Of a stretch of DNA of 64,000 nt, positions 2,641 to 57,135 are shown one piece after another. Position 1 is the first letter of the stretch; each line of letters opens with the position of its first letter. This DNA comes from Echinarachnius parma (taxonomy: Eukaryota; Echinodermata; Echinoidea; Clypeasteroida; Echinarachniidae): positions 100,867 through 164,866 of the forward strand of contig JBAMJV010003147.1 of the NCBI GenBank assembly GCA_037951105.1, in the 5' to 3' direction. Position numbers and translations under genes: made by a program. The notes under the pieces were generated by a model. It worked only from the letters and a program-made list of their open reading frames with translations, had not been told where the DNA came from and ran no database searches.

Positions 2641-2681
<41 letters not shown>

Positions 2682-3026: not shown

Positions 3027-3065
<39 letters not shown>

Positions 3066-24778: not shown

Positions 24779-24921
24779 TCATGGCATGCGGTATACCTGA
24801 CACACGGTGATAAAACTGGCCATACAATTGGCGTCGAAATACGTCCCCCTCTTCACAGCCGACACGCGCACCTTTAAACAAACTTGGTTGGTCTCATTTG
24901 ACGGCTGCCCAGTTCCCCAGT
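24779..24921 (-). CDS. Paralogue 2 exon 6, CTLD end and stop
   Basis: Starts NWGTGQPSN, then VCLKVRV, YFDANC, ITVCQ and VYRMP stop. Its acceptor lies about 70 bases from the nearest edge of the foldback element in the preceding intron. Confidence 0.8.
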
Positions 24922-27900
24922 CTGTGTGTGCAAAGTACATTAAGAGCGATTATTCGTCCATCAACATTAAGTTTAACAGCAAATAAGAGGGGTCCTAGAT
25001 TATTAGCGCGAACAATTGCAAAGTATGTGCGAACAAGCGCGAACAAGTGCGAACAAGCTATACTACTAAAAAAAAGGTTAAGGATCACTTTTTTCTTAAC
25101 TTGTATCTTTTCCAAGCTATGAGTGAGGTCTTAACTATTTCTTTATTTTTTTGTTTGACTAGATAGTGTCCTCATTGGAAAAAAAAATTATGTGAGAGAC
25201 ATATGCAACAACTTAACCACATGTGATATTGATTACAGTGTGTTTGAGGTCATTCAGGAGTAAAATATCTCATTTTAAATTGTATACACAAAATAAAAAG
25301 TGATCCTTAACTTTTTTTGAGTAGTACTGCGAACACATTTTTCGTTCGAACTCACTCGTTCGCAGTGAATGGTATAAATACTAACTATACTGAGAACAAG
25401 TGCGAACGAGATTTAACGCGAGTATTTATGAAATCCCGTTCGCACTTGTTCACAGTAAATCCAGTTCGTGCTTGTTCGCATACATTTGTTCCCGTTCATT
25501 CCATCAATATGTAGGTTATTTTTTCACTAAAAACTTTTTCAGAAAAAACGAAACCGGATTTCATAGCAGAAATTTTCTGTCATAATAAATAATTTCTTTG
25601 ATAATTTATACATGAAAACAAAGCTGTGTTTCTCTTCTTTTTCATTTGATGTACAACTTATGGCACATAATTCAGGCATGACTGAATTAAAAGCAATGGA
25701 AATTGGTGTTACCAAAACTCCATTTGCACGCAGAAATTGCAAGTTTGGGCAAGTTTTAGGGAAGTAAACGTGCTTATTTTGAAAAAGGACAAACACTGCA
25801 TAGAAATTCATATTTGTATCTTTTATATGACATCTCATGCACCAAAAATATAAACGATGTTTACCAGAGAACAACAATAAAGAAAACATGCCTGATCTAT
25901 GCCAAATAAGTAGAAAGTTGAGTAAAGCGTGCGTGTTTTTAGTCCGTACGTTATTTTGGGAGGCCACGGCCGCTACGTTTTTCTGAAAACGTGGGGAGGG
26001 AGTGGCAAGAGCAGGGAGGGAGTACCGTCAACGTACGGTGTAAGTGCGTGGCCCGCACGCCACGCCTGGCCGTGAGCGGTTGCGTGCATCGTACGTTGCG
26101 CACGTGGTAAGTGCGTTGTACGTGCTTACAACGTACGGTCTCCGTGCGGTTGCCACGTTATCGTACGGAGGCCGTACTTACACGTGCTGCTCACGTACGG
26201 TGTCCTTACTCACTAAGTACGTGCAAGTGCGAACAACCTTTTCTGCTCATATTATACTGCAGAAATCAGTGCGCACAACGTGCGTTGTAAGTGCGGAGCA
26301 CGTGCTTACTCGGTACGGTCCACGTGAGTTCTGCGTGCTCATTGGACAGTTGAACTGGGGAAGTGCCGAGTAAGCACGGACCACGCACTTATCACGTGCG
26401 CAGCACGCACGTGCGCTCATTGGCTGTAGAACGCAGCGAAAACGCAGCGAACGCAGCGAAAGTTCCTCGTGCACTAAAAGTGCTACGTCGTGTCTGCGTG
26501 CTCCCAAATCCGTACTGAGTCGGTACTGAGTCGGTACTCACCACGTACTGATACCCAAATTTTGTGACCACCGCTTAAAGCGGTGGTCACAACCCGCCGT
26601 ACTTGCAAGTGCGTGCCCCGTGCGTGCTGTCTACTTGCAAAAACGTGGGCAAAATTTGGGTATCCGTACGTGGTGAGTACCGAATCGGTACCGACTCAGT
26701 ACGGATTTGGGAGCACGCAGACACGACGTAGCACTTTTAGTGCACGAGGAACTTTCGCTGCGTTCGCTGCGTTTTCGCTGCGTTCTACAGCCAATGAGCG
26801 CACGTGCGTGCTGCGCACGTGATAAGTGCGTGGTCCGTGCTTACTCGGCACTTCCCCAGTTCAACTGTCCAATGAGCACGCAGAACTCACGTGGACCGTA
26901 CCGAGTAAGCACGTGCTCCGCACTTACAACGCACGTTGTGCGCACTGATTTCTGCAGTATAATATGAGCAGAAAAGGTTGTTCGCACTTGCACGCACTTA
27001 GTGAGTAAGGACACCGTACGTGAGCAGCACGTGTAAGTACGGCCTCCGTACGATAACGTGGCAACCGCACGGAGACCGTACGTTGTAAGCACGTTGTAAG
27101 CACGTTGTAAGCACGTACAACGCACTTACCACGTGCGCAACGTACGATGTACGCAACCGCTCACGGCCAGGCGTGGCGTGCGGGCCACGCACTTACACCG
27201 TGCGTTGACGGTACTCCCTCCCTGCTCTTGCCACTCCCTCCCCACGTTTTCAGAAAAACGTAGCGGCCGTGGCCTCCCCAAAAAACGTACGGACTAAAAA
27301 CACGCACGGTGGGTTGTGACCAGGGCTTTAAGCGGTGGTCACAACCCGCCGTACTTGCAAGTGCGTGCCCCGTGCGTGCTGTCCACGTAGCTTTAGTCGC
27401 CGAGCTTTCCTGACTTAGCAGCTGACAATGGACTTGATGCATGAGTGAATTTACACAAACATGGGGATCAGGGAAAACATGGGAAACATGCTAGATCAGG
27501 AGAGCTACTCATTTGGGCTGAAATCAAGCATGTTTTCATTGTTTTCGTTCTCTGGCATAAATCATTTAATTTTAATCATGAGGTGTCATATGAAATATAA
27601 AATATGAATTTGTATGCGGTGTTCGTCCTTTTTCAAAATACGTGTACTGCCCTAAACACTCACCAAAACCTGCAATTTCTGCGTGCAAATGGAATTTTGG
27701 TAACACCAATTTCCATTGTGCTTATTCAGTCATGCGTGAATTATGTGCCCTAACTTAAACATCAAATAAAAAAAGAGAAACATAGCTTTTCAGTCATATC
27801 ACGTTAATATGACAGAACATTTTTTTATCTGGGACACGCTATAGTTCGCGCTTGTTCGCATTTGTTCGCGCTAATTAGTAGGACCACTATAACGGAATAA

Positions 27901-30900
27901 GGGTGTTCAATAAAAATAAAAAAATGACATCAGGGAAAGACCCCAGGGGCTTGTTTCACAAAGATTCTAACTTGGACTTGACCTGGAACATGACTCTAAG
28001 TTAATATACCTGACAAACAATGGAAAACGTTAATTCCTTTGTGAAATTTGATTAAGCAGTTATTTTGAAAAGGCACGAGGTTTGATAAAATTAGTTATAT
28101 TTGTTATTATCAAGTAGCCTTGAAATAATTGATACATCCTTTTGTTGGAAACCTAATGTACACTGCGAAAAATGCGGTGTTAAAAGTGTAACACTAAGCA
28201 GGTGTCAAGCTGGTGTCAATTCAACACCAATGTTCTTTCAAGTGGTGTAATAGTTTTGTCATGAAAAGAGGGTATTCACTGACAACACCAGGTCGGTGTT
28301 AGTTTTCCACCAAAGAAGATATTTGAACACCCATGGGTGTCTGGTATCTTAACAACAGTGACGGTGTTACTTTAACACTAGATAGGGTGGTCCTCTATTA
28401 AAGCTGGGCTGGTGTTAGATTTAACACCCGTGGTATTAAATCTAACACCATTCTGTTTACAGTTTACCCTTTTCCCGTTTATTCCAAGGCTAATTCACGG
28501 CATTTCCCATTGTTAGGTCCACTTAGAGTTAAGTTAAACTCTGAATCGTTGTGATACACCCTATAATTATAGAGAGGGAGTAAGATGGGGAGATGAAGGG
28601 GCTAAGAGAGGTGTGTAGCAGTGTGGGAACCGACAAATCCGTCTCTGTTTCGACGGCTTTTCCACTTAAGGCCCAGTCTCACTACCAGTAGGAACCCAGG
28701 CCGACACCTAACTGATCAACTCGGGGTCGTTCGGGGTGATGTCGATTACATTTGAACCGAATATTAGATATGGAGGAAGAATAGATATATATCTCTTGTC
28801 CAAGCCCGAACTTGATGAACATTTGGAATTATGACACACAAGTTACACAACCCAAACAGATCGGACCCATATCGACGCGACAATACGGGTGTGCACTGGT
28901 CGGTTTGCTTTTGGTTTCGATTCGGCCTGTTATCGGGATACTGTCAGGCTCGATTTGTCGAAGAATTCTGTCTTACGCGCTCGAAATAATAATAAAATAA
29001 TAATAATAATAATAAATCATTTATAGAGCGCGGAAACTATGTATATATATTCTACCGCGCATATTAATATTAATACCCATGGTCATCAGGTACATTTCAA
29101 ACCCACACAATGATATTGCATACTTTCTCAACTCCCCGGGGAGCATACTAGCCGTGCTGCCACTGATGATGGCGCAAAGGCTAATTAACACCCGACCATG
29201 GTACCCATTTATACACCTGGGTAGAGAGCAGCAACTGTGGATAAATTGTCAAAGATGGGGGCCCGAACCAAAAACCCATCGAGACCGATATCACCCCGAT
29301 AGCAGAGCAAACTTAAACTGACAGCTAATGGAAACCACCCCGAATTGTCGATTTTGAGAATTTGGGGTTTAGTCTGGTTGTGTGTATCTGGCGCGGAATA
29401 GAGACCAGAATTACATTCGGCCGGCACCAAACCAAACAATATCGTTGTTTTTGTATGGAAAGTGCATTTAGCGTCTTTTGGAACTAAGCTCTTCAAATAC
29501 ACTTACTGATCTCGCCGAACGGATACTCAAAGGGGGATACAGACGCATCACGTTCACACATCCACGTAGCCTCTTCCTCTTCCTTGCAGTTCACCCACGC
29601 GAACTTTCTTGAGCCGAACAAGTCCTGGTGGAGCGAGAGGAAAAAGAGAAAATAGCTCATCTCCGCGTCATCTTCGATGAAGAGAAGCGATGCGCTCCCG
29701 TGGATGGTCATGTCTCCTGCAACTGTTGCCAAGGATGCCGCGGTTGCGGGAGGGAGGTTGGTGCAGTAGTCACGGGCATCCTGCCAGGTTCTATTACCGC
29801 CGAAGTGGTAGCACTTGCTTCCATTGCATATCCAATCTTCGACTGGAATGGAATTTAGGAAGGAGGTTTATGTAAACCATGGATATAATTAAACTATGAA
29901 CTGCCGCTTGTCGACGGTCGAGTAAAAGGCGGAAATCACATTTGCTAATTTTTAAAATAAAAAAATGCTTTAGTGGTGTTTGCTAACAATCGGCTTCAAA
30001 TACAATTCACCATCAAATGAGAACATGAGAACAGACATTTGTTAGGTGTATTTAGAAAATATGCAGCTTCAACATTGTTGAAAAGTAAAATAAATGTAAA
30101 TGTTCCCTCATCAATTTAAAAATGGGGCTCCTCAGTGCAACCATGTATTAACAAAAAATACATTTTTTAGTTGTATGTCAAGTTTTTCAAATAAACTAAT
30201 TGCATATCACTATTGGTACGCCTAATGTTACCTAATTGCTGCATATGATTACAAAAACACTGTAGCATTCGAAATGGAATGACGATTAAAAACATTGATA
30301 ATCATATTGAAGGTGTAGGGAGCTTTGCAGAATGACTGTTGTATTTTTCAGAGTGGATAGACTGAAATGATCATCGCCAGACACTGGTATAAACACCACC
30401 TTTCAAAGTGATCCATTAACTTCGTCAAATTCGACCAAAATCTCTTGTGGGGTTTTTACAATCCCTTGTACCTTGCTCTTTGGATTATGTTTGAAGAATG
30501 AAATTGGTTTTAATTATTGTCTCCTCAATGCTAATTTGTAGATATGTCAAGTTATAGTTGAATGCAATAGCGTTCCAGGAACGCCTTTCGATTGTATTAC
30601 TCCATTGAGTCCAGGCCCCATATTCATAGAAACCCCGCTAGCTTATAGTTCCTTGCTCAGTGTATTTTAACTGTGCAGTTTATTAAGCAACAAAATGTTT
30701 TCCTAGTCCCAAAATATATAAGGTATAGCTAGGTAATACTTAGGTGCCCAATAAGTTAACCCAAGTTAGCAAATACAGTTTAAATCTCAGCCACGTCATC
30801 CAAAATATATTTAGCAAGGAACTATGCAACACTGTTAAAACGCTGTGTAAACAAATTCAACAACTTGTTGAAATTTTTCAACAACCGCTGTTTAACATAT

Positions 30901-33900
30901 GAACCATCCAACTGTTGTTGAAAACATTCAACAACCCCAGTTGTTTAAAGTTTACACAACTGTTGTTTTAATTTTCTCAACAACAGTTGTTTACAATAAA
31001 TTTCAACAACCCTGTTGTTGAAATAGTTAATCAGCTCGACAATACGTCATAAGTGTTTGAAATGGGAATTGAATGGGGAAAATACATCATCAAAAAGCAT
31101 CGAATAGATTGTCTTACACTAAACTACAATAATCAGAACTTATAGTTACCAATCTCACAGCGTTCACCAGTGTAAGGAGGTTGACACTCGCAGTAGAAAC
31201 CAACATCGGTCTCCACACACTGCCCTGATGAACACGGGTTGCTCAGACAATCTGATTTCATGTAGAAGAATAGGAGAAAGAAGGCATATTTTTAAAATAT
31301 GTATACATATTTTTAAAGGGCACCTTCATCTTATGTGTAAAAGTGATAAGTTTCAATAATCCATTTGACCAACAACTATAATTTAATGTTTCCACAACAT
31401 TTGTTTCCCTCCAAACTTTATGAAAAAAAATATAATTCCAAACGAACATTCATCGGCCTGCAGAAACAGACTGGTTATATTGTCATGGGAACTTAACCAT
31501 CCCCAATAGACGATAGATGACGGCTTCCTTCTGCACACGTATGAACACATACTGGCGAGTTTTTAAACTAGGATCATAACATAGTTACGAATAATTTACC
31601 AAAAGGCCATTGTTAGTTTAGTATGATGTTGTGGTCAAAATCTTCTTATAATACCAGTTTCTACCCAGGCTTTAATCCTATATAAACTGGGTTCCAAAAG
31701 AAACTTATCACTTCTTCAGAGCGACGCTCACTAAAATCCATAGCATCAAATTGAATCATATTTAGACACAGATAAGCTATCATTCTCCTTATGAAGCATA
31801 TCTGAAAAATTGAAAGGTTGCTTTTGCCAAAAAAGAGAAAAATGCGATGGAATCGCTACAGGTCACTTTACAAAAATCACAGAAACTGCTCGCTGCGAAC
31901 CTCCACGAAAGGCGGTCTATTCAGAACTTTCAATAGCTATTCATTCAACATCAAAGGCGAATTATGTAACCATCAGGCTGGCTATTGTCCGTACCTAGCT
32001 CCGTGCCCGGAAGGCGAGCAGTTTCTGTGATTTTTGAAAAATTACCTCTTGCGATTTCACCTTATTTTATTCTTTGTTGACTAAATCAAAATAATTTTGT
32101 TTAGATGTGAATGCTGAGGAATATTATAGCTAATCTATGCCCAATTATGATTCATTTTTATGCTTTAGATTTTAATGTGTGTCGCTCTGAAGAAGTGATA
32201 AGTTTCTTTTGGAACCCAGTTTAGTAAGGTCACACATTACAGACCTAGTTTAATGTATCAACAAAATAGATTGAATTAAATTGTTTAGTTGAAAAGGTTT
32301 TATGTATTGTCCACAACATGCAGATTCTTCTGAAACTCGTTGGGCGTACAATAATAATGAATTTGACATTTAAACTACATAATTATACAACTGTTTAAAG
32401 TTAAAAATTATAATTGTACCTTACACTGGAAACAACATCATTAACAAGCTGGCAAATATATGAAGGAAATGTAATGATAGAATGCAACTATTAGTTGAGC
32501 CAGCGTAGAATTTATAAGTGAACAAAATGTATTTCATCCAAAATATAATTCCAAAGAGGTTTTTACAAAGCACATGAAATAATATGACATTCTACAAACA
32601 AAAAACATGATTGATATTGTGTATCCCATGGATGGTAAATAATATAAACCAGACAAAATCGAGATACGTCCATACCTGGCAAGGAACAGACCAGTCGGGC
32701 GCCGATTCCACCCGGATTGACCAGGCTCAGCTTCCGATCCTTGGACTTCACATCCTTTGGGACGAGTCTCACTACGTCACCAGAAGGCAGTTTGACTTGA
32801 GAACACTGGGGCATATTAAAGCACTGCTCAGTCCCCTCGGCATTGCACATCAATCCTAGTTTACGCAGAGAAGGAAGAAAATAAACAAAATCTTAGTGGC
32901 CACCTGTCAATGGCATGCAACCTGCCTATAGGGGTCTACAAAATGTATCCCGTAAATACAGATACTATAATATAACCATTCTGACTATATAAGCCGGTTT
33001 GACTATTAGAGAACTGCTTAGTTTCCTCGCCATTGCCCATCAATCCTAGTTTATACATAGACATGATAGAGAAGGAAGAAAAAAGAAAATCTTAGTAGCC
33101 ACCTGTCTATAGCATGTAACCTGCCTATAGTGGTGTTCAAAAGCTATTCCTATATAGCTGCAGAAACACATACTATAATATAAGCTGTCTGTAGAGGTCA
33201 TGTATGTCTACAGCAGTGGCCACTTTGTCCCCTTAATAGGGTTGTCAATGTATACACAGGGGTGATCTGCACTTAAACATTATTCTGCTATAATGAGCAA
33301 TATATATGTACATGTATTCATATTTGTATTATTTGTATTATTTGTATTATGTATTTGCTGGAGCTACAACTACCTCATCCTTCCTAAGGTGCAGTGGCAG
33401 CTCATTATGACTTCGCCATGTCGCATTTGCAACGGATGGAGGTCAAGGTTTCCAAAGTGCTCAGGAGATGGCTTGGAGTCAGCTGTAATCTTACCGGCGT
33501 GGCTCTATTTTGTAAACAGACAAAGCTGCGATTGCCATTAGACGGCCCTACCTCAACCCTGAAGAAGACAGCTTACTTCAACTCCGTCACAGCTCTGACG
33601 AGGTAGTTCAGTCGGTCAGACCTGAGATTCGGTGCGGGCGAAAGTGGAAGCCGGAGAAAGCTGCAGAAAGAGCTACCTGCAGACTACTGTTCGAGGAAAT
33701 GGCGAAGGGTCAAGCTGATCGTCCAGGAGTAGGAGCGATCAAATTCAGACCCTAAATTAGAAAAGCTGTCAAACCAAGAACACCGTGCTGAGATAGGAAG
33801 GATCGTTCTTAGCGAACATGATGATGACTACTTTGTCCGCGCAGTGCAGATGAGTGTGCAAGGAAGATGGACCTCATGGGAGAATGCCAAACAACGCGAC

Positions 33901-36682
33901 CTCAAATGGAAAACGCTTCACGACATGAGCCCAAAGCTGGTGCAATTTATGATTGGTGCGACTTATGATACCATATGGCTTCCCCGGCGAACCTTGCAAG
34001 ATGGGGACTACAAGCTAGTGACGTATGCAACCTTTGTAATCAAGGAGGATGCACAACCACACACATCCTTGCGGGTCGCTACACCTGGAGATATAATCGT
34101 GTACAGCAGGTTATCACACACAGTCTCGAGGAAGAGGTGAGCAGAGTGAACGCGTCGCCATCTACGAGGAGTAAGGAATTCCTCATTAACTTCGTTCGCG
34201 AGGGAGAGACAAGGCCTAAGATGACTCATAGAAAACCTACTGGCCTTTTGTCGTCGGCGAGGGATTGGAAGTTGTTGACCGACCTACGCACAAGACAAGT
34301 CTTCCCAGAAGAGATTGTAGTCACAAATCTTCGTCCCGACATCGTGATCTTCTCAAGACAGAAAACATCTGTAATCAGCGCTAGAACTAACCGTTTGTGA
34401 CGAGGGGAATATGCCAGGCGCTCACGAGAGAAAGCAGAGGAAAGTACGAGGAATTCCTCAACTCATGTTGCGAGGATGCTGGCTGGACTGCTTCAGTGTG
34501 GCCGATAGAGGTTGGTTGCAGGGGTTTTTGCTTCTAATTCCCTCCTACCTTCACTCTTCCGGCTTGGGATCCGACGTTCATCGGGAAAAGCTCTGGACAG
34601 ATTAGCCTGCAATGTAGCAGAGAAATCAAGCTTCCACCTGTGGATCCAACGACATTCAACGGCTTGGGCCTTGCCCCATGCCTAATGCCAATTACGTCAT
34701 AATGGATGCGCGCCAGGCCACATGACTAACGCAGCTCAGTGATAAATTACCAAAGAAGCATGGATCAGGTATTTGATTTGCGAATTTTCCTTTGATATTA
34801 TACGATTAAGGTGTTCGGATACTTTTATTATCCACTAGCTGGAAAGTTATAACAGTGTACAAATTCAGCGCAATTGGTTAGCGATCAAATATTCCTTAAG
34901 TTTGCATTTTAGCTCATTACTTGGCCATGTAACATCCATGTAACGTAACATTTTCACACATTACTGGGTTGGCATATCAGAGCACAACAATACACATGCA
35001 GGTTATCAACCATTCCATCACTGTTTGTTCATGTCAACAAAGATACTCGGTCCCTTTAAAGCCAAATAACAGTACTGGGAATCGCCTTGAACACACAAAA
35101 TGAAAAATATGCTTTCATCACCTACGACGTGAACGAATATTTCATAACTTAGATGTAAATGTAAAGATAAGTTCAAAAACTGCTTTGAAATTGACTAATT
35201 GATTATTATTACGTTCCAAAAAAGAACGATGGTTGACAAGTTCAATTTAACCACGTGCGGAACCGCGTATGTACGCTACATGCAACAGATTATGTTAGCG
35301 CACAGTATGCCGGCCGGCTTGTCGATATATCCGGCCCAGCGCTAATATAGCGACGTGGTCAGGTGCGAACGGGCGGTGAATTTAGGCCAAATTTCACGGG
35401 CGTGCATAGGATTTCCTCCGATATTTGTGCATTTAACGATACTAAGGTTCCGATTTGACCACACAGGCCATTTTAAAAATAATGTACTTATTCAACAATT
35501 CTGATCAATAAGTTTGGCGAATATGGATGCTTTCGGTAACTTTCCCCAATACTGTTATTTAGCTTTAAGCAGAGGTGTAGTTACTGGTAATCATGTAGGT
35601 CATCAAGTGGTCCCAATAATGCTCATCACCATTGAACAAAAAACAAAAAAAACGAATATTAAGTTGAAATAGCAAAACCTTGGGAGCGTGCATCCAACAT
35701 GATAAGTTCTTAGTTGTTTTGGACATTTATATGAGTGTTCTATGAATCGATACATTGTGCTGCATTTTCAAATGTCTTTATGATAATTTAAAACCTATGT
35801 ATGCATGGTAACTAGAAGTTCGCAGACAAAAAGAAATAAACAAAAATGGTCTACTTAGCGTTAAATATTAATCATTAATATAACTTGTTCATACAACATC
35901 AACATGACGTAAACAAACTTAAACAGTTTCACCCTTTTGATAAAAGAACAAAACGTAAGGAAAATATAAAAACATTTAATTTTCAAAATTAGCATCGCTT
36001 TATTGAATTAAATAAATCAGATGTTTTAATCGTAAAAACTTAATATCCGAAAACAACTATTTAGCAACAACAAAAAGCGTTTCTAAGTTTTAGAAAAATT
36101 AAACATACCTTTGCCTGTCAAGAAAACGATGAACAGAACCAGTTGAGTGACCTGTACATGAAATTAGGATAGGACATGTAAGTATTGTTATTGAATATAA
36201 CAAAAACACATGGGTTGATGAATTAACAAATCTCTGTATCTATATTAGATTATGTGATAAGACGATGGCTGCCGAATCGCCGAATCGAAAATAATTGAAT
36301 TACAAACGTAAGGAATTTCAATTCCATTATTTTTTCCCTAGAAATGTGTTCAAAACTTGGAGAAAGTATTATTTGTCAGTTACTAACAGAATGTATTTAA
36401 TGAGCAAACGGTTCGTATTTTTAAAATTATCCTTGTACGGACACATACTATTCCCATTCGATTTTATATACGCAATTAATTTTTTTAAGTAATTTTCTTA
36501 TAAGATTTTCAATTTCAATTTCAATTTCAATTTATTTCCACTTGTAAAAATTACAAATATATACAATATATGATATGCATGAACATCAAATGCATGATTG
36601 GTTACAATTAAATGAATAAACAAAACAAAAGTGGGGGAATCATAAAAAAGCACATTATATGAATTCGAAACAGACTCACCAT
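24779..36682 (-). CDS. Paralogue 2: secreted EGF / C-type lectin-like protein (6 coding exons, complete)
   Basis: Seen: exons at 36680-36682, 36109-36151, 32676-32855, 31150-31251, 29507-29842 and 24779-24921 join to 807 nt (268 residues) with every phase agreeing with paralogue 3. Order: signal peptide MVTQLVLFIVFLTGKG, four-Cys module ending VCSLPG, EGF domain, long-form CTLD, tail QVYRMP and stop. The front is close to paralogue 3 (5 changes in 60 module residues, 4 in 34 EGF residues), while the CTLD is much more different: exon 5 is two codons longer and exon 6 four codons shorter. The calcium-site words are GQPSN and QVCLKV, so no canonical EPN/QPD plus WND site. The last intron is 4.6 kb and holds the foldback element. 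The product is probably a secreted lectin-like protein; its ligand cannot be told. Confidence 0.82.
25061..25326. mobile_element. MITE nested in the foldback element
   Basis: Inverted ends TACTACTAAAAAAAAGGTTA and its counterpart finishing in TTGAGTAGTA, both carrying TTAAGGATCACTTTTT. It splits the outer left arm. Confidence 0.7.
25929..27307. repeat. 1.38-kb palindrome (636-nt and 658-nt arms)
   Basis: Left arm 25929-26564, right arm 26650-27307. The 22-nt difference is two extra copies of an 11-bp unit (ACGTTGTAAGC, three against one, at about 27080-27115). As a result the two strands encode an identical 86-residue frame (26247-26507 minus, 26707-26967 plus), a consequence of the mirror and not a gene. 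Confidence 0.9.
26566..26595. repeat. Palindrome at the foldback centre, with a displaced copy
   Basis: TGTGACCACCGCTT, one A, then AAGCGGTGGTCACA: a perfect 14-bp stem. From here AAGCGGTGGTCACAACCCGC and the next 35 bases recur as a direct copy at 27328-27383, outside the inner right arm. Confidence 0.85.
27886..28988. mobile_element. Intron of paralogue 2 with GGTGTTA-rich MITE
   Basis: Between about 28158 and 28462 lies an element with related inverted ends (CACTGCGAAAAATGCGGTGT and the complement of CTGTAAACAGAATGGTGTTA), filled with GGTGTTA/TAACACC words. The remainder shows no gene. Confidence 0.55.
28989..29260. repeat. SINE-like short interspersed repeat
   Basis: An AATAATAATAAT run, then ATTTATAGAGCGCGG, and further on TACCCATTTATACACCTGGG and GGATAAATTGTC: a combination common in interspersed repeats of marine invertebrates. 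The ORF across it has no recognisable domain. Confidence 0.5.
29507..29842 (-). CDS. Paralogue 2 exon 5, CTLD first part
   Basis: 336 nt, phase 1-1. Marks: WICNGSKCYHF, TWQDARDYC, SASLLFIEDDAEM, AWVNCKEE, TWMCERDA. The second helix region is longer and more hydrophobic (YFLFFLSLH) than in paralogue 3. Confidence 0.85.
29843..31149. other. Paralogue 2 intron 4
   Basis: 30402-30600 carries the GTGATCCATTAACTTCGTC repeat also at about 38304 and 50770. 30829-31030 is a partial copy of the ACACTGTTAAAACGCTGTGT element seen whole at 52501-52997. No gene. Confidence 0.5.
31150..31251 (-). CDS. Paralogue 2 exon 4, EGF domain
   Basis: 102 nt, phase 1-1, six Cys: DCLSNPC, GQCVET, FYCEC, GERCEI. Donor GTAACT. 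Confidence 0.88.
31686..32221. mobile_element. MITE with about 43-bp inverted ends and TA flanks
   Basis: Left end AACTGGGTTCCAAAAGAAAC continues identically on the opposite strand at the right end through TTATCACTTCTTCAGAGCGAC. Flanked by TA on both sides, as for Tc1/mariner-type elements. Lies in intron 3 of paralogue 2 and is absent from the matching intron of paralogue 3. Confidence 0.82.
32262..32665 (-). repeat. LINE-like tail insertion near exon 3 of paralogue 2
   Basis: In paralogue 3 the word ATGTATCAACAAAATAG runs almost directly into the exon 3 donor (about 52098-52127). In paralogue 2 about 400 bases starting ATTGAATTAAATTG intervene. Related to 23385 and 48222. Confidence 0.5.
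32676..32855 (-). CDS. Paralogue 2 exon 3, unrecognised N-terminal module
   Basis: 180 nt, phase 1-1, beginning GLMCNAEG and ending RLVCSLPG; same Cys spacing as paralogue 3. No known domain recognised. Confidence 0.8.
32860..33380. other. Paralogue 2 intron 2, 3' part
   Basis: Contains a diverged tandem duplication: the stretch after exon 3 (GCCACCTGTCAATGGCATG, 32897) recurs near 33098 (GCCACCTGTCTATAGCATG), with a relic of the exon end (CCTCGCCATTGCCCATCAAT, 33025). Confidence 0.6.
33385..34690 (+). mobile_element. Broken retroelement, C-terminal part of reverse-transcriptase polyprotein
   Basis: Plus strand in several frames: RRWLGVSCNLTGVALFCKQT, then GRWTSWENAKQRDLKWKTL, LARWGLQASDVCNLCNQGG, FVREGETRP, DLRTRQVFPEEIVVTNLRPD and ERKQRKVRGIP. 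These match the conserved tail of invertebrate retroelement polyproteins (the zinc-knuckle-like CxxC followed by the LRPD block) as I remember them. At least two frameshifts; no intact RT core in the window. In intron 2 of paralogue 2, antisense to the gene. Confidence 0.72.
34691..35055. other. Fragment of the TTAAAGGGACCTAGTAAC repeat
   Basis: 34890-35057 matches the family (GCTCATTACTTGGCCATG, then CAACAAAGATACTCGGTCCC). The rest shows nothing recognisable. Confidence 0.45.
35056..35567. mobile_element. MITE with AAATAACAGTA ends
   Basis: Left TTTAAAGCCAAATAACAGTA faces right TACTGTTATTTAGCTTTAA. Interior 35225-35470 is GC-rich with GCCGGCCGGC-like words. Confidence 0.65.
35568..36108. 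other. Paralogue 2 intron 2, 5' part
   Basis: AT-rich; no gene or recognised repeat. Confidence 0.5.
36109..36151 (-). CDS. Paralogue 2 exon 2, signal peptide
   Basis: 43 nt between TACAG and GTATGT, encoding VTQLVLFIVFLTGK plus one base. Confidence 0.8.
36508..36665 (-). mobile_element. LINE-like 3' tail fragment with TTTCAA repeats
   Basis: CAATTTCAATTTCAATTTCA, then TTTATTTCCACTTGT, just upstream of AATTCGAAACAGACTCACC. The same place in paralogue 3 lacks it, so it is an insertion specific to this copy. Confidence 0.65.
36680..36682 (-). CDS. Paralogue 2 coding exon 1 (start codon only)
   Basis: ATG followed directly by GTGAGT, as in the other two paralogues. Confidence 0.7.
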
Positions 36683-43030: not shown

Positions 43031-43039
43031 TTTCCAGAG

Positions 43040-45948: not shown

Positions 45949-45999
45949 ATTTCTATTATTTGTAATTGTTCGTATCTGACAATATATTTTTGACAAAGC

Positions 46000-47106: not shown

Positions 47107-47452
47107 AAGTCAGTCTAGAAGTCAGTGACAGGAATAATTATGCACTTATAGAGCGAAAATATCAGCGTTTCATTTCCTTGCCTTTTACATTTCTACAAGA
47201 CAGGAATTGGCGATCGGGTGCTCGACAATTCAAATAGAATCTAAAATGTTTTTAGTTACTCAAATGATTTAATCCCAACCATCAGTCAATTTCGTGCTAA
47301 ATTGAATGATCACAATGTCACTTTGACCGTTGTTCTCAGCAGTTTGACCGGGAAAACCTATATTCATATATCCTACATATTTTTGAGAATATCCAAAAGC
47401 GGTTTTCAAATTGTTTTTTAATTATTGCTTTAACCAAATATTAGATTCACAG

Positions 47453-47962: not shown

Positions 47963-47979
47963 AGAAAAATCGTATTTAA

Positions 47980-48195
47980 ACAATGGTTGAACATTTCAGA
48001 AGTCTGAAAACTCTTGTGTTAACGGCTGCTTTAAACAAAATGAAAACAACTATGTTACTTAGATGCTCAGCCATTTATATGTTTTTCTACCAGCCAAGCA
48101 TTATTGAATTATAATTTATATATTAGTTTTCAATGAAAAGATACAAGTTTTAGTTTGTAAAATTGTATTTGACCAGAACTATACTATCCATTTAA
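47980..48195. repeat. Partial TTAAAGGGATAGT-family MITE
   Basis: Interior words and a degraded right end (ACCAGAACTATACTATCC). The counterpart next to paralogue 2 is at about 22305-22436. Confidence 0.5.
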
Positions 48196-48221
48196 TATTC
48201 ACGGTTACTTCCATGAAGGTT

Positions 48222-48540
48222 AACAATGAATTGAATTGAATTGAATAGGTTTCATTTATTTTGTACAACACACATATACACTGATATGACATTTAAAGTA
48301 TATTATACAAATGGTTTAAACGTTACAAAAGACAATAATAAATCAATGTAACAACACTGTCTTGCCGATAATACAAATACACTGAACACGAGGAAGGACT
48401 TATCATACATACAGTATCATAATATATACACACTATTACTAGTAAACTGGTAAAATATATACAGGAAATGTAATGCTATACGATCAAATTTTGAATTAAA
48501 TGATGCAGATTTTCATAATTTAGTTGGTTAAAAATGCTCT
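48222..48540 (-). repeat. LINE-like 3' tail segment, copy 2
   Basis: GAATTGAATTGAATTGAATA, then a stretch parallel to 23385-23740 (AACAAGCTGGTAAAATATATA-like words), showing that the segmental duplication includes the 3' flanks. Confidence 0.55.
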
Positions 48541-49047
48541 GTAGAAAGTATGAAACATTAAGTAGAAACAAAATGACGCATAAATCATACGACTTTGACA
48601 GGACTAAATACGGTACATGCATTATTATCTGATTATTATTTATTATTTTATATTATAATAAACCCCGCACGAAAAGTTCCGCAATTCAAGTTTGATCGTT
48701 CATATCCCTCTTGGCCCTAAATTATCTTACATGAATTCGGTATCATTTCGGTATCATTTTGTATTCATCTATATATATTTTTATATTATTTATTTATTTA
48801 TTTATTTATTATTATTATTTTTTTTTGGGGGGGGGGGGGGCATACTCCTTTTTTCAAAGTGATGAAAACTGTCACGATTAGCCGGCTGAATCACATATTG
48901 AATCACTGCTTGATGCAGTTATGACGGGCAGGAATGGCAATTTTTCGTTCCGGTTTTTTTTGCCACCCTGTCGGATGCGGATGTGCCACGAAGTGTTTTG
49001 TTTTTTACTCCACTTCGTAAAAAATTCTTTCTTGATGAACACCATCT
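48541..49047. other. 3' flank of paralogue 3 with TTTA repeats and a G run
   Basis: TTTATTTATTTATTTATT at about 48788-48812, a T run and a G run (about 48827-48840). Candidate untranslated region; no further exon recognised. Confidence 0.45.
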
Positions 49048-49202
49048 TCACGGCATGCGGTATACCTGGCACACAGTGGGGAAGTCATTCTTACAGAGGG
49101 CGTCGTAATACTTCCCTTTCCCTTTGTTGACGGTTGCTGACACTTCTACGCGCACCTTTAAACAGTTGATGTCAGATAATGTGGGTTCCGTTCCTGCCCA
49201 GT
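49048..49202 (-). CDS. Paralogue 3 exon 6, CTLD end and stop
   Basis: Opens with NWAGTEP in place of the usual WxxGEPN, then INCLKVRV, YYDALCKND and the family ending TVCQ. Stop TGA follows VYRMP. The 3' flank holds no close polyadenylation signal; TTTATT on the plus strand (AATAAA on minus) recurs near 48.79 kb. Confidence 0.8.
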
Positions 49203-52200
49203 CTGTGGGTGTAAAGTTGAACGCGATCATAATGTATTACAGCTAATATGGAGTATGTATATTCAATAGTGAGAGAGAGTGCAAAGAGGTAGCGGAAGGG
49301 TGGGGAGTAACAGAAAGATCTCCAGGAAATCGGGTTCTGTTTCGACGGTAATTGTTCCAATAAAGCCCTGGTCATAATGGACCTACAACAGGTTCACAAC
49401 GGTAAATAGTTATGCCACTGGCACTGCACGACACATCCACGAACTTGTTTGTCTAACTCGTGTGTGATAACGTCATACGACAATCGTACGACATTCGTAT
49501 GGAAAATGACATGTTGTGGATGCCAACAGTTTGGTGCCATACGATGGACCTGCTACATTACCACGATTCGAAATTGTCAGACTCTACGATCAAGTATATT
49601 AATTGTAAGAAATCATCATTGGCTTTTATTTAGTCAATGGGAGAAATTTAACATATGACCGCATTCCAAAAATCTAATGGCTAGACAATTTTTATGAGGG
49701 ATATTATGTATTGATATATGCTGGTCCGATTAACAAAATTAACCCCAAAAAATGTGTGGAAAAGATACAATGTGCCAGTACAAAAAAAGTTAATATGAAT
49801 AGATAAATATACATGAACTTACTAATCTCGTCAAACGGGTACTCAAATGGTGGTCCAGATGCGTCACGTTCACACAACCACATAGCTTCCCGCTCTTCCT
49901 TGCAGTTCACCCACACGTACTTTGCCGATCCATGCAGGTCTTCGACGAGGGAGAGGACAGAGCTCATCTCCGTTTCATCTTCGATGAAGAGAAGTGATGC
50001 GCTCCCATTAATGACCACGTCTCCTGCAGCTGTTGCCAAGACTGTCATGGTTGCGGGAGGGAGATTGGTGCAGTACTCACGGGCATCCTGCCAGCTTCTA
50101 ATACCGCCGAAGTGGTAGCACTTGCTTCCATTGCCGCATATCCAATCTTCGACTGGAATGGAATTTACGAAGGGGGGTTAGTAGAGTTTTGGTAAGGCTA
50201 AACTTTAGTAACCAAAACCTGCACAAAAACATTACAAACTAATAATTATAACTCCACCATCCTCGAAAGGTATAGAAAATTACAAACGACTAAGTAAAAA
50301 GCCTGTTATAATTCAGAAAGAGCCATTTACACACATGCGGGCGCTTTCTAAAAAATCATTGGTTTCAACCATTTTTCATACAAAATTATGCATGTGATGT
50401 TTTGTTGAAATGATTAATAAAATAGAGAGTTCATCAACAACTATTTTAAAAACCTCTTTTGAAATTTATTGAAAAAGTATAAGCATTTTGTAAATAATTA
50501 AAAACAATCATCGAATATATCTGGGGCCCAGATTTATTCCGATCGGATATATTTATTGATATTTCAGCCGTTTCTGAACTGATTTTGATCACTTAAAGTT
50601 TATTCTGTAATTAAAATTGTATGCTCTTTCAAATCTTACACTCGGTTTTTTATTATCTCACAAACAAATGATTTCGTTCAGCACCCTCTATACCAAAACG
50701 GAACTACCCCTTTAACCATGGTTAAAATACGTCATTGATCATCTCCATACCCTGGTATGCACACTGAAAAAGTGATCCATTCACTTGTTAAAATTCAACC
50801 AAAATCTCTAGGGGTTTTACATTCCCTTGCCCATGTTTGGCTTTTTTTAAAATACGGTGGCAGGAATGAAATTGGTTTGAATTATTGTCTTTTAGATATT
50901 TTAGCTTATTTGAGATATATCAAGTTATGGTTGAATGCAAAAGCGGTCCAGGATCGCTTTTCCATTATATTACTCCACAGTGTCCAGATTTGTACATGGT
51001 GATTGGAATGAAAGGTGGGGTAATTCGTTCACATGTACATTACATGGATGGGCGGTACTGTAACTCGACAGCTTGTCATATTAAACATTATCATAACATA
51101 ATACAATTACAAAGTCTGGAGTAAATGGACTTTAAGTTGATCAGCTTGACAAGATGTCATCAGTGTTTGGCATGGGAGTCAATGCAGTAAAGACAGGACT
51201 AAATTACGAAGAGGAGCGGAATAATACAAAAGCTTAGAATACATTAGCTAAAGACCAACTATAAAAATCACAATTTACCTATCTCGCAGCGTTCACCAGT
51301 GAAGGGACGTTGGCACTCGCAGTAGAAACCCACCCCGGTCTCAACACACTGCCCCGATGGACACGGGTTGCTCAGACAATCTGATATAATATAAAAATAT
51401 GCGAAAGGATAAATATTTCAACTTGAAAACTTAATCCTTGTTTTAAACTTTGCTTCATAACTTTGTCACACGCGTGGGAACTGTTGTTCAACATGTCCTT
51501 GGAATGTTTTTCTTTGTAAGACTTTGAAGGAAGCCATCATTATAATGTAAAAGTTATCAATTTTACATTTAACCAACATTTATACACTGAAATGTATGTT
51601 TTCAGAAATATTGTATCCGAACGTTATGATCAAAACGAATGCAATCAAACAATCCTTGGCCTGCAGAAACAAACTAGTTATATTGTCATGGGAACCTAAC
51701 CACCCCCTTGACAATAGATGATAGTCTCCTTCTGCAGACGTATGAACACATGCTGGTTATTTTTTTCTAAATTAAGATTCATAACATAGTTACATAATAT
51801 AATTTTCCAGAAGCCCATAAGCCAGTTATGCTCTTGAATGTATTATTCGACATCCGGACGACATCCTCATAATTATACGGCCAGTTAAGACGCGCGCGGA
51901 ACGTTACACAGGGTAGATGACGTAGACAGCGCGCGCCGATACTCCCGTGTCGCGCCAGCTGATCGTGATGAGGTAGGTGCGGTTGTTATGGTAACCTACC
52001 CGAGTGAGGATTTTGTGGATGGCTGGTTAAGACAGCGGCCATGAGCCTGACGAAGGCTCACCAGGTGTTTTACGATCAGACCCCCTACTGTTAGTCGAAT
52101 GTATCAACAAAATAGTACAACCATACCTGGCAAGGAACAGACCAGTCGTGCGCCGATTCCACCCGGTTTGACCAGGCTCAACTTCCGATCCTTGGACTTC

Positions 52201-55200
52201 ACATCCTTTGCGACGAGTCTCACTACGTCACCAGAAGGCAGTTTGACTTGAGAACACTGGGGCATATTAGAGCACCTCTCAGTCCCCTCGGCATTGCAAA
52301 TCAATCCTAATTTAAATAAAGACGGGAGAAAATAGAACAAGTTGATGGCCACCTGCTATAACACCCATCCTGCCTATCAAAATAGTGGTTTCCAAAATGT
52401 ATCCCCTGCAGAGACCCACACATAAATATAACATGTTGCAATTGTGGAGTTACTTTTTTCTGATGTTAATCACTTCATTTTTAAACTGAAGATTAGGCAT
52501 ACACTGTTAAAACGCTGTGTAAACAAATTCAACAACTTGTTGAACATTTTCAACAACCGCTGTTTAACATGTGAACCATCCAACTGTTGTTGAAAACATT
52601 CAACAACCCCAGTTGTTTAAAGTTTACACAACTGGTGTTTTAATTTTTGTCAACAACTGTTGTTTAGAATAAATTTCAACAATCATATTGTTGAAATAGC
52701 AAATGCAAAAAGGATTGTACTAAAAAGCGGCGAGGTCGGAATCGAACCGGGGGTCTTTGGGTTATATGTCTAACACGCTACTGACTGCGCTAACTCGGTT
52801 CGCTTGGTCTGCTGGGAGACAAAAGGGGTTTTGTCGCGGTGATTTCGCGGTCGAAATTATCACGTGAATTAACACTTTTCAACAGCGCTTGAACAATGGC
52901 CGCTTTACACAACCCTTCTTTCTACAACTATTCATGCTACACCTAAAGTTGTATAAAAAGATTCAACAACCATTTTTACACAGCGTTTTAACAGTGTACG
53001 ACTACCATGCCCACGAAGCTACGTTGTAGTTCAGTTTATTTGATGTATTTATTTATTTCCGGTATGATAAACAACATGATACAAAGGTCCGGAGAACAAC
53101 AATGATCATGGTACACTAATATTTCTAGATACATTAACAAAAAAACACATAAATCGTAAACATATAATATAATGAAGTTCCAATTTTCTAAATTCTAATT
53201 TTTTTGTTATAATATACAGTATAATACAACATGTTTAGAGAGGTAAAAATTCAACAGAATTAGGTTAAATGTAATCATAATTTTAGTTAATCAAAATGAT
53301 ACCCGTCTTAATTGGACAAAATAGTCGTGGTGACGTCCTGACGTTACCCGGGTGAGATCATACCCCGTTCCTATTATCAAAGACTCTCCAATGGGGGTAC
53401 CATCAGGACTACATCGGGCTGCGTTTTAACCAAGTCGTACCAGGGTGAGGTCGTGGTAACGTCCGGACGTCACCCTGATATCATCATGACAAAATACCTA
53501 TTAATCCGCGGACCGTGGTTACCCGGATGGATGACGTCAGTCGGGCATGTGCAAATGGGCCGTGAAAAATATAAACATTGCAGCGATCGCACTTTGGATC
53601 GGGAACATGCGACACGCTTGTAAGCAAGGTTGCCAATTTAACTTGCTGTATGATTACACACATAACCTATTACATGCGTTCCTAATTTTACACTGGCAAT
53701 TAATCAACTAATACAAGTTTTGATAAATTAATAAATGAATCGTAAATTTTAAAAGCTACAATTAGGTAAGCACAACAACTGATATCTGACTGTGCACATT
53801 CAATTCAGCAATAATCGCTGATCGGGCACACGTGTATCTGTATGAATAATGATAATACTGCTTGTTTCCTTTTAAGTTGACTTTATTATACTGTCTTACG
53901 CCAATCGCAATATCTACCCAAATATTGCCGTGTCGCGCCAGCAGATGTTATGTCATGCCCATGTCATGGTTGTCAGCCGTTGTCATGGTAACTCACCCGG
54001 GTGGGGTTTGTGCGGGTGACCGAACGAATTTATTAAGCCACGGCCGTCCAAAGTCTCACCCCGTGTTTTGCGGTTAGACCACCAACTGTTTCTCACCCTG
54101 ATGTAGCCAGGGTAACATCGAGGTAATTAAAGGGGCCCGGCAAACCAAATGCATGTTGACTTCTGTTCATCTGTACTAGTGTACACATTCAATATTTGTA
54201 AACGGTTTGACCTAAATATGTTTTGTATATGTATAAACATTTTATCATTTATTTTTCTTCATGTTGCTAAGCCCCACCTCCTAAAAAACCCTCCGGAGTA
54301 AATTCTACTGTTGACCTGTTGTGACATCATCTGTCAATCACTGGTCAGCTACCATGAGATTAACAAAAGATGAAAGTACAAAAAGAACATCCACACAAAA
54401 GCATGCCCTGCATACCTCCATGCAATAGCTTAGACAGTGTTTTTCTTCTGATATAGCAACAGCTATTGAAATTGAAGGTGTGTGAGTTGGTATTCTATTC
54501 AACCGTGTGATGCTATTGTGATTAGGCACTCAGCTTGGGTGAAGGTAACCTCTTTGTAACTGAGTAGTGAATGGCTGATGATGTCACAACATGTCAACAA
54601 TATAATTCTACTCTGGAGAGGTTTTCAGAAGTGGGGGCTTCACAATAATGGAGAAAAATAATTACTAAAATGTTTTAAAATAAACAAAATATGATTGGGT
54701 CAAATGGTTTACAAATAGTTGATGTGTACACGTATATATATGAACAGAAGATAACATGCGTTTAGTTTGCCTGGCCACTTTAAGACGGGATCAGTAAATT
54801 CCGTGCTGGGGGGGGGGGGGGGGGGGGGTGCGTTGGGTGCGTTCGCACCCCCCCCCCCCCCCCCCCAATTCAGTAAGGTCCATTTTCTACCGGTCTCGAG
54901 TCCACTTTTTATTGGTCTCGACCATATCTCAGCCAATGGTCTTGAATTAATGGCTAAACAACTTTATCAGAGGTTCAGCCTCGGTCTCAATTGTATTTCT
55001 GATATTTAGGAAAATCAAAATGATACCTCTGTTTGTCAAGAGAACGATGAACAGAACCAGTTGAGTGACCTGCACATGGAATTCAGGATAGGATATGGAA
55101 AACGGAAATATTGTTATTGAAAAACATAAACACATGTATTTATGAATAAAACACATTTCTGTGACGAAACCGTCACCGATTTAAAGGTACACTTGAGTAT

Positions 55201-57135
55201 GGTACTTCCCGAAATGTGAAATGAGATTCATCCCCTTTCAAATGCTCTCATAGTTTTAACATTGTATTTATAAATATTGTATTCATAAGTCTACCCTGCC
55301 GGGGAGAGACATCTTGACTTTTTAGAAAAAATACAAAAAATGCTTATGGACTTCTTAAAAAAAAAATCTAAATAGGTTTTGAAATAGTTGTTGATGATAT
55401 CTCTATTCAATTATAATTCTAACAAAACATTACATGCACAATTTTGTATGAAAAATGGATAAAACCAATGAGTTTTTAGAGAGCTCCCTCTTGAGTTGTA
55501 ACAGCTGTTTTTTAATTATAACTGGGTTTTTACTTAGTCGTTTGTAATTGTGTATACCTTTCAAGCATGGTGGAGTTGTAACCTATTAGTTTGTACCGTA
55601 ATGGTGCAGGTGTTTGTAACTATAAAATTAAGTTTGACCAAAACTCAACTATCCCTTTAAAGTTTTGGCTGCCGAATCGGCAAATCGAAAATAGTTGGAT
55701 TACAAACGTATAATATGGATTTTTAATTCCATTACTTTCTTTTTAGAAAAGTATCCAAAACTTGTGTTATTTGTCAGTTACTATAGGTTTTCCCGGTCAA
55801 TTTCGCTATTTTCTCATGCAATTTCATATCAGCAGCATTCAATTTCACCTAATCCGCGTTGGGATCGACACATCGTCATTCAAATTCGTTGTTAGTCATT
55901 CATATTAAGTAACGGAGCAACCAATTTCACACTTGCGTCATTCAAATGTAAGCGATGGGCGCTAATTTGCGTTAATGGTCTTTCAAATTCATCTCTAGCA
56001 GTCTGCGCTCTCATTTCGGTCATTCAAATTCGCGCATGGGCAAACAAGTTAATTATAATTTCATTAAAATTAAACATGTACAGTGGAAATGTAATGGATA
56101 TGTAACGTCATGGTATGGTACAGTTATTTCGTGCATGGGCAATCAATAAACAAAACATGATGAAAATACAGATATAGATTATGAAAAAAGATACTGATAA
56201 AATAAAGATCAGATGATGACAAACAAGAAAATGGGATGAAAATGAAGATTAAAATGATGAACTAAATATTGCATGTTGATAAAGTAAAGACGTGATGAAC
56301 GAATAGAAGAAAAAACAAAAAGAAAGCAAAATGTGAAATATAAAATTATTGAACATTGACAAACAAATCTAAACAAAATGTGACTGATGAATATCGAAAA
56401 ATGAAGATTATAATGTTGAAAGTATCTCTGAAATGTCAAATATATAACACGATGAAATGGTCGAGACTATGTAAGGAAAAGAACGGTGATGATGATTTAA
56501 AAGATAAATCAAAGTCATCGTATGTCATGTATGTGTGTGTTTGTATATGTGTGTGCGTATGTATATGGTTGTATACATGCATGTAAATATGTTTATGTGT
56601 GAGTACGTATGGATGTTATTTGAGTAACTTGAATCGAATGAACATTTCTGGAAATTGGTCACCCATTAACGAAATTGAATGCACAAACGAGCGATTGTCA
56701 AGCTTGCCGTATTAAATTGAATGCCCATTTGTTGAAAATAGCGCCCAATGATGAAATCGAATGCCCATTTGCGAATTTGAAGTTCGCGATTTGATATTTG
56801 AGTGCCCATATACGAATATGCATGCCGGAATATGAATTTGAATGACCAAAGCGACTCCTCCACAGTACAGCAATTGCACGAAATTAAATGCACATAAAAC
56901 GAATTTCGGCGCGTAATGTTGGAAATTGGCCGGGAAAACCTATATTAAACAGAATGCATCTAAGAAACAAATGGCTATTGTTTACTTATCCTTGTACATT
57001 GTACGGACACATTTTTTTTTTTATTTACCTTTCGATTTTTATATACGCAGTTAATTTTTTGATAATTTACTTATTCGATTTATATGCAAGCTTTCTATCT
57101 TATATGCATTTGATTGTTTGAAACAGACTCACCAT
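49048..57135 (-). CDS. Paralogue 3: secreted EGF / C-type lectin-like protein (6 coding exons, complete)
   Basis: Seen: six exons at 57133-57135, 55027-55069, 52127-52306, 51279-51380, 49823-50152 and 49048-49202, all with AG/GT boundaries, join to 813 nt without a stop and encode 270 residues. Order: signal peptide MVTQLVLFIVLLTNRG (1-16); unrecognised module (about 16-75) with four Cys, ending VCSLPG; EGF domain (about 76-109) beginning DCLSNPC; CTLD (about 110-266) beginning VEDWIC and KCYHF; tail QVYRMP and stop. The extra N-terminal Cys pair marks a long-form CTLD. Known: such proteins are usually secreted recognition or matrix proteins. The CTLD lacks EPN/QPD and WND calcium-site motifs (EPT and NCLKV instead), so classical calcium-dependent sugar binding is doubtful. 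CAG at the end is followed by GTATAC, which could be a donor, but reading through reaches the same seven-codon tail and stop as paralogue 2, so I end it there. No transcript evidence. Confidence 0.82.
49823..50152 (-). CDS. Paralogue 3 exon 5, CTLD first part
   Basis: A 330-nt phase 1-1 exon. CTLD marks in order: WICGNGSKCYHF (long-form Cys pair), SWQDAREYC (first helix), SASLLFIEDETEM (strand and second helix), VWVNCKEE and MWLCERDA (core strands). Exon ends at GAGATT A, donor GTAAGT. Confidence 0.85.
50178..50715. mobile_element. MITE, TTAAAGGGATAGT family, in intron 4 of paralogue 3
   Basis: Ends AGTAGAGTTTTGGTAAGG and ACCAAAACGGAACTACCCC then TTTAA; central TCTGGGGCCCAGA. Confidence 0.7.
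50770..51278. repeat. GTGATCCATTAAC repeat, intron 4 of paralogue 3
   Basis: AAAGTGATCCATTCACTTG onward matches 30402-30600 in the same intron of paralogue 2. No gene. Confidence 0.5.
51279..51380 (-). CDS. Paralogue 3 exon 4, EGF domain
   Basis: A 102-nt phase 1-1 exon encoding one complete EGF domain with six Cys: DCLSNPC, GQCVET, FYCEC, GERCEI. It lacks the DxDEC calcium-binding start. It differs from the paralogue 2 exon at four residues. Confidence 0.88.
51850..52085. repeat. GC-rich insertion in intron 3 of paralogue 3
   Basis: CGCGCGCGG-rich stretch containing GTGTCGCGCCAGCTGATC. Related sequence at 53930-54110 (GTGTCGCGCCAGCAGATG). Not seen in the paralogue 2 intron. Confidence 0.55.
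52127..52306 (-). CDS. Paralogue 3 exon 3, unrecognised N-terminal module
   Basis: A 180-nt phase 1-1 exon that I cannot assign to a known domain. It starts GLICNAEG, has Cys near positions 4, 12, 17 and 56 of the exon peptide, a basic stretch KDVKSKDRKLS, and ends RLVCSLPG. It differs from the paralogue 2 exon at only 5 of 60 residues, so it is better conserved than the lectin part. Confidence 0.8.
52501..52997. mobile_element. TIR element ACACTGTTAAAACGCTGTGT, carrying a tRNA-like sequence
   Basis: Ends ACACTGTTAAAACGCTGTGT and ACACAGCGTTTTAACAGTGT are exact inverted repeats. The interior is rich in CAACAAC/GTTGTTG words. A relative lies at 30829-31030 without its right half. Confidence 0.83.
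52727..52803 (-). tRNA. tRNA-like sequence (degenerate; probably a pseudogene or SINE head)
   Basis: Minus strand: TTAGCGCAGTCAGTAGCG fits an A box and GGTTCGATTCC fits the B box exactly at tRNA-like spacing. The acceptor ends do not pair (GCGAACC against TCGCCGC) and the anticodon stem around ACATA is poor, so a working tRNA is unlikely. Confidence 0.5.
53300..54140. repeat. GC-rich repeat with GTAACGTCCGGACGTCAC palindrome
   Basis: Near-palindromes GGTGACGTCCTGACGTTACC (53329) and GTAACGTCCGGACGTCACC (about 53457), and a section related to 51850-52085. No ORF of note. In intron 2 of paralogue 3. Confidence 0.5.
54240..54645. mobile_element. Repeat with TGACATCA-rich ends, uninterrupted copy
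   Basis: CCTCCGGAGTAAATTCTACT and GTTGTGACATCATCTGTCAA are mirrored at the right end (GATGATGTCACAACATGTCA, CTCTGGAGAGG). It shows the state of 43040-44045 before the nested MITE arrived. Confidence 0.72.
54808..54866. repeat. G21 / C19 homopolymer hairpin
   Basis: A run of 21 G (54808-54828) and a run of 19 C (54848-54866) face each other across a short GTGCGTTGGGTGCGTTCGCA loop. Homopolymer length in an assembly is uncertain. Confidence 0.8.
55027..55069 (-). CDS. Paralogue 3 exon 2, signal peptide
   Basis: A 43-nt exon between a TGCAG acceptor and a GTATCA donor encodes VTQLVLFIVLLTNR plus one base. The hydrophobic run TQLVLFIVLL directly after Met is a typical signal-peptide core. Exon length and phase (0 in, 1 out) match paralogues 1 and 2. 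Confidence 0.8.
55181..55660. mobile_element. MITE, TTAAAGGGATAGT family, in intron 1 of paralogue 3
   Basis: Left end TTAAAGGTACACTTGAGTAT, right end CCAAAACTCAACTATCCC then TTTAA. The homologous site in paralogue 2 (about 36262, before TGGCTGCCGAATCG) is empty. Confidence 0.72.
55782..56944. mobile_element. TATAGGTTTTCCCGG-ended element in intron 1 of paralogue 3
   Basis: Left TATAGGTTTTCCCGGTCAAT and right ATTGGCCGGGAAAACCTATA are inverted; the interior repeats TTCAAATTCG/CGAATTTGAATG words. In paralogue 2 the same intron reads GTCAGTTACTAACAGAATG without it, an empty site that fits a TA target. Confidence 0.83.
57133..57135 (-). CDS. Paralogue 3 coding exon 1 (start codon only)
   Basis: The ATG is followed at once by the donor GTGAGT. 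Paralogues 1 and 2 have the same arrangement, so the first coding exon carries only Met (phase 0 intron) and the rest of that exon is 5' untranslated. Confidence 0.7.

Follow-up and report, generated by a model that had tools for sequence, protein, structure and literature searches.

The DNA analyzed here, a 64,000-nucleotide (nt) window from the echinoid Echinarachnius parma (contig JBAMJV010003147.1, positions 100,867 to 164,866), forms the right-hand end of a contig of 164,866 bases in a 1.2-Gb genome. It carries two genes of a family that joins a constant N-terminal cysteine module and an EGF domain to different C-terminal domains. Gene 1 (36682-24779) and gene 2 (57135-49048) lie on the minus strand and have six exons each. 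The earlier note on this DNA had put together two complete, frame-consistent proteins; reassembly from the window returned the same lengths, 268 residues for gene 1 and 270 for gene 2, with GT-AG at every junction, the first intron in phase 0 and all remaining introns in phase 1. The introns measure 0.5-4.6 kb, and the predicted proteins read, in order, signal peptide, a Cys module of ~55 residues, EGF, and a C-type lectin-like domain (CTLD).

The exon series is the same in both genes: an exon holding the start codon only, a 43-nt exon for the core of the signal peptide (called by eye), one exon each for the module (180 nt) and the EGF (102 nt), and finally two exons for the CTLD. In gene 2, the ATG of exon 1 (57133..57135) is followed by a GTGAGT donor and preceded by the 5' untranslated region, and exon 2 (55027..55069), with AG/GT edges, is entered in phase 0 and left in phase 1. 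Exon 3 (52127..52306, phase 1-1) encodes a four-Cys module ending CSLP(G), exon 4 (51279..51380) the EGF, exon 5 (49823..50152, phase 1-1) the first part of the CTLD, and exon 6 (49048..49202), in the spliced reading frame, its last part and the stop codon, which ends at 49048. Splice reconstruction of gene 1 gives the start codon at 36680..36682, the signal peptide core at 36109..36151, the module at 32676..32855, the EGF at 31150..31251, the first part of the CTLD at 29507..29842, and its last part at 24779..24921, with the stop codon ending at 24779. Contig C7432, presumably the other haplotype, repeats the module, EGF, and first CTLD exon in identical order and strand. Because the exon series is repeated in two tandem genes, its order is kept on C7432, and a module, EGFs, and a CTLD are found again in a fourth gene to the left of the window, the arrangement is more than chance.

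The EGF domain is above the PF00008 cutoff of 21.5 bits in both genes (23.0 bits, E 9.9e-5 in gene 2; 30.9 bits, E 3.3e-7 in gene 1). For the C-terminal domain, an alignment read by eye reveals the six-Cys framework of a long-form CTLD in genes 1, 2, and 4. The Lectin_C profile (PF00059) covers this region from position 4/5 to 106 of its 107 and scores below its cutoff of 22.6 bits (17.0 in gene 1 and 16.4 in gene 2), so that calling it a CTLD depends on its Cys framework and on C-type lectin structures that match weakly. PDB matches of the two proteins are chiefly Notch EGFs; the best C-type lectin structure is lithostathine (E 0.003). No Lectin_C match fell on this contig among the best 150 of 619 genome candidates. 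The EGF of the original annotation is thus confirmed by its profile, and the long-form CTLD by its cysteines but not by its Pfam score. An EPN or QPD motif together with WND is the mark of Ca2+-dependent sugar binding in C-type lectins. This motif set is absent: gene 1 has QPS and FDA, gene 2 has EPT and YDA, and gene 4 has QPN and YDT. "Lectin" is therefore at most the name of a fold for genes 1 and 2.

That these genes belong to a family, as had been proposed, is borne out by the tandem array described below and by a search with the gene 2 module (E up to 10), which gave 62 matches in the whole genome, presumed allelic copies included. Some of the loci are look-alikes (L022/L023, 99.7%; L035/L036, 99.9%; L038/L039, 99.1%), and our guess is that there are roughly 40 distinct module loci. 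Thirty matches came with surrounding DNA and held 24 distinct module sequences, 20 of which were aligned with one from L054 (A2, 21 modules; L021, L033, L044, and L048 were omitted). At all 30 loci, an AG..GT exon in phase 1-1, the phase that our script required, can be read for the module; 17 of the 30 modules start with GCxC, 28 end in CSLPG, and 2 end in CSWPG. Eight of the 68 alignment columns are invariant across the 21 rows, among them the last two Cys. These are the only two Cys present in the divergent member L054, suggesting that they pair with each other. Between this module and its EGF lies an open 629-residue frame of a 14-residue repeat, a minisatellite (L054:1442-3328).

The module has no recognized relatives in the databases searched. 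A Pfam match was the test that the earlier note had named for a module it did not recognize; when all 21 members of the alignment were scanned, no significant, consistent match appeared, and four families were hit by one member each (best E 0.044). Against PDB, the best E values were 0.96 with a single sequence and 0.84 with the profile. Weak matches to ribosomal L24, Plexin-A4, DUF7177, a SAMD1 domain, and zinc fingers are not backed by any other result and were taken as chance. In the portion of the literature that our searches reached, we found no description of this module at the head of a protein. The domains at the other end of these proteins are already known; the head is without a counterpart in Pfam or PDB.

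The module and the first EGF (EGF1) are tightly linked across the genome. We scored the best 150 of 3906 candidates for EGF1 and tallied proximity for 51 of 150 EGF, 25 of 150 CTLD, and 28 of 148 CUB matches, namely, the strongest ones and weaker ones on contigs with a module. For 42 of the 46 strongest EGF1 matches, a module on the same strand lies no more than 20 kb upstream, versus ~0.02 expected by chance according to our own arithmetic; one of the four exceptions is the broken gene 3 of the array, in which the module is disrupted. Seen from the module side, EGF1 lies downstream within 20 kb in 46 of 62 cases and within 5 kb in 43 of these.

What follows the head differs from member to member. 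Among the 62 modules, 14 are followed by a CTLD (three of them >11 kb from the module), 15 by a CUB domain (one, 12 kb away, is doubtful), and 1 by a SUEL lectin domain; for 32, none of the three was found. In C1292, CUB is encoded by two exons (Pfam E 3.8e-16 and 3.6e-6) joined in phase 1 and followed by a stop codon; in C13278, a SUEL lectin exon (Pfam E 4.8e-24) is joined behind the head, also in phase 1. The combination of module, EGF, and CTLD singled out at first is real in genes 1, 2, and 4 and too narrow for the family, in which the CTLD is one of at least three C-terminal domain types, with CUB and SUEL, that stand behind the module and EGF. The 13 best genome matches to the C1292 CUB exon are all 1.2-2.9 kb downstream of a module; the 14th has no module and is placed at the start of its contig. 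Of the 18 best matches to the gene 4 CTLD exon, 11 are within 30 kb behind a module and 7 are not. Among the best 150 of 229 SUEL candidates, a single match is on a module contig. Contig C6862 accounts for 45 of these 150 matches, with near-equal scores, on one strand, in blocks ~1.9 kb apart (positions 302-164426).

To order the tail changes, we inferred a tree of the module plus EGF1 from 15 of the 19 copies that have both parts, omitting the near-copies L021, L036, L039, and L040. The five CUB rows form one clade (support 100/100) and the five CTLD rows another (92/90); the SUEL row falls outside both. This grouping by tail favors few, old tail changes followed by local duplication; free, ongoing shuffling of tails finds no support in the tree for CUB. 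One further copy, C945, falls outside the CTLD clade and has a close relative in the C3317 module locus (82.9% over 1.2 kb), where a CTLD match lies 11.7 kb downstream of the module. CTLD matches also lie 3.7 kb downstream of the divergent modules on C1186 and C5417. Given the CTLD matches behind these three modules, the CTLD tail may be the older state and CUB one replacement.

Genes 1 and 2 have diverged unevenly. Synonymous divergence (dS) is 0.06 in the module, 0.46 in the EGF, and, for the two exons of the CTLD, 0.35 and 0.98; the module has fewer silent differences than the rest (Fisher p 2.6e-4, rounded counts). The corresponding ratios of nonsynonymous to synonymous divergence (dN/dS) are 0.71 (from 8 changes only), 0.13, 0.40, and 0.37; in the signal-peptide exon, 4 of 43 bases differ, and all 4 changes are nonsynonymous. 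The module exon is 95.6% alike over 180 nt, and its 50-nt flanks on either side are 79% alike, compared with 76-77% beside the EGF exon and 68-72% for unrelated 100-nt stretches by the same measure. L021, presumed to be the second allele of gene 2 (the presumed allelic pair L020/L021 is 95.5% alike), differs from gene 2 at three module residues and matches gene 1 at all three, a hint of gene conversion. A conversion tract would have to stop almost at the exon edges, and so conversion is not the sole reading; constraint on the module exon could explain its low silent divergence equally well. A CAACAA-rich repeat of 199 nt (94.5% alike) occurs in different introns of the two genes, at nonmatching places (31026-30829 and 52699-52501).

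The array continues to the left in a single direction, with gene 2 followed by gene 1, then by the broken gene 3 and by gene 4. Gene 3, on the minus strand, has a 43-nt AG/GT signal-peptide exon (10622..10664) like those of genes 1 and 2, a module exon of 140 nt (9106..9245), a length not divisible by 3 that breaks the frame, with weak tblastn matches (E 0.016 and 0.17) to the modules of genes 1 and 2, and a first EGF exon (8440..8541) with 79-82% nt identity to genes 2 and 1. Further EGF exons lie within 995..7159 (cores 7159-7064, 6566-6471, 4064-3972, 3482-3390, 3187-3095, and 1087-995), another near 3783-3661 is interrupted by an in-frame stop, and the EGF array runs past the left edge of the window to a CTLD, ~1.7-2.1 kb outside it, in which stops and frame breaks occur. 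Gene 3 thus looks like a pseudogene. A remnant that by eye resembles a LINE-type (long interspersed nuclear element) reverse transcriptase occupies 6050-4950 within a gene 3 intron. Gene 4, 12-22 kb left of the window, comprises a module (L025), three EGFs, and a CTLD-like final part that runs to a stop codon. A signal-peptide-like exon is present 614 nt ahead of this module; the exon with the start codon was not found. Farther left, the contig has a 5000-base gap, and tblastn (E below 1) found no further copy in the contig stretch read left of the window. Inside the window, a partial, degenerate copy of the module start remains on the minus strand at 33004..33045 (83% over 42 nt to the gene 1 module). 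The earlier note had reported two genes, both of which are real, and had overlooked the broken third copy beginning at 10664, the partial module copy at 33045-33004, and the genome-wide family. Two other features of the window were noted. At 26044-27297, translations of open reading frames are repeated across both strands, by eye a GC-rich inverted repeat of ~1.2 kb and perhaps a fold-back mobile element. The contig end (62800-64000) is strongly C-rich and of low complexity (GC skew of -0.61 in 62001-64000) and may be an assembly-edge artifact.

Judged from sequence, these genes may well encode secreted proteins for recognition or adhesion in which the head is constant and the binding end differs, the genes in the window being part of a tandem array of a large family. 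Each member would start with a shared 5' unit, comprising a signal-peptide exon, the ~55-residue Cys module, and one characteristic EGF; the first exon consisting of the start codon alone is known for genes 1 and 2 and was not sought elsewhere. Later exons, joined at phase 1, would carry the binding domain: a CTLD (after 1 to about 10 EGFs in the array), CUB, or SUEL lectin. The protein would be secreted in soluble form, its C-terminal domain would bind an extracellular ligand, and the head might dock or oligomerize it, so that different binding ends feed one assembly. The proteins of genes 1 and 2 would probably bind their ligand without a canonical Ca2+/sugar site.

Several results weigh against this reading. 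Besides the subthreshold Lectin_C scores of genes 1 and 2, neither gene 4 nor two exon pieces of locus L051 matched Lectin_C at E up to 1. The number of Cys per module varies (4, 5, or 2), and single-sequence fold prediction of the module was poor (predicted local distance difference test [pLDDT] score of 53.3, predicted template modeling [pTM] score of 0.36). A signal-peptide-like exon was seen upstream at 7 of the 30 module loci, and at the other 23 no candidate was found within 1.5 kb upstream; in genes 1 and 2, these exons lie farther off. The 32 modules without a located CTLD, CUB, or SUEL among the matches listed include 14 that also lack the EGF, partly because the queries were specific, contigs short, and the tallies limited to those matches. 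The SUEL type is a single case in which exons after the SUEL exon were not found. Finally, some copies are broken: gene 3 and L051 on contig C291, a CTLD-type copy with an in-frame stop within the CTLD exon and probably another broken member.

Other explanations have to be set against secreted recognition or adhesion. EGF, CUB, CTLD, and SUEL domains are frequent in matrix and adhesive proteins, and the family could be structural, its lectin-like and CUB domains cross-linking glycoproteins in matrix, mucus, egg coat, or glue without recognizing any foreign target. The missing Ca2+/sugar motifs of genes 1 and 2 and the long EGF run of gene 3 would suit such a role; tandem duplication, faster divergence of the CTLD, broken members, and presumed differences between alleles are seen more typically in recognition families but are no proof. 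We see this as possible but somewhat unlikely. A bolder version of the recognition hypothesis is a cassette-like secreted system in which the new head, staying similar among neighboring genes, was placed separately before the unrelated binding domains CTLD, CUB, and SUEL, followed by tandem expansion, with docking shared by all members. This is made less likely by the drop in similarity at the module flanks, which leaves gene conversion as not the sole reading, and we consider it unlikely.

The module might instead be a propeptide or a secretion or targeting segment, cut off before the protein acts and with no binding role. Its place directly behind the signal peptide and its variable Cys number fit such a segment, but its sequence is kept across members with different C termini, as seen in the invariant columns, its last Cys adjoins the EGF, and by eye there is no dibasic site at the CSLP|DC junction; we regard this explanation as distinctly improbable. 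Least credible is that the exons come from separate genes and were assembled into a protein by accident. The introns are long enough to leave room for this, but order and strand are the same in genes 1, 2, and 4, C7432, and the CUB group, phases match wherever DNA was read (genes 1, 2, and 4, L050, and L053), and the excess of upstream modules over chance is large (42 of 46 EGF matches).

If secreted recognition or adhesion proteins are indeed encoded here, a domain absent from Pfam that stands at the head of several tens of genes whose binding ends differ would be a new entry among extracellular modules. It would also be a clear example of exon-phase domain replacement in which the head stays constant. 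Should the function of these proteins be host defense, in line with the guess of an immune role in the earlier note, they would represent one more lineage-specific recognition repertoire. Among known systems, C-type lectin-like proteins of the long form (PF00059) have the same Cys framework as genes 1 and 2, with its extra N-terminal pair (WIC..KCY). What sets genes 1, 2, and 4 apart is a Cys pair added in all three CTLDs, W(V/I)NC ... W(M/L/V)C. No SUEL or rhamnose-binding lectin (PF02140) or CUB protein (PF00431) with the module head was described in the part of the literature covered by our searches, and it is the domains of these proteins that stand behind the head in the sister genes. The G3 region of lecticans is built as EGF-CTLD-CCP and selectins are built as CTLD-EGF-CCP, with CCP beside EGF and CTLD. 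The genes described here share with them an EGF adjoining a CTLD and phase-1 extracellular exons. In contrast to lecticans and selectins, genes 1, 2, and 4 stop directly after the CTLD, with no CCP in Pfam scans and no transmembrane segment seen, and they bear the unrecognized module at the N terminus.

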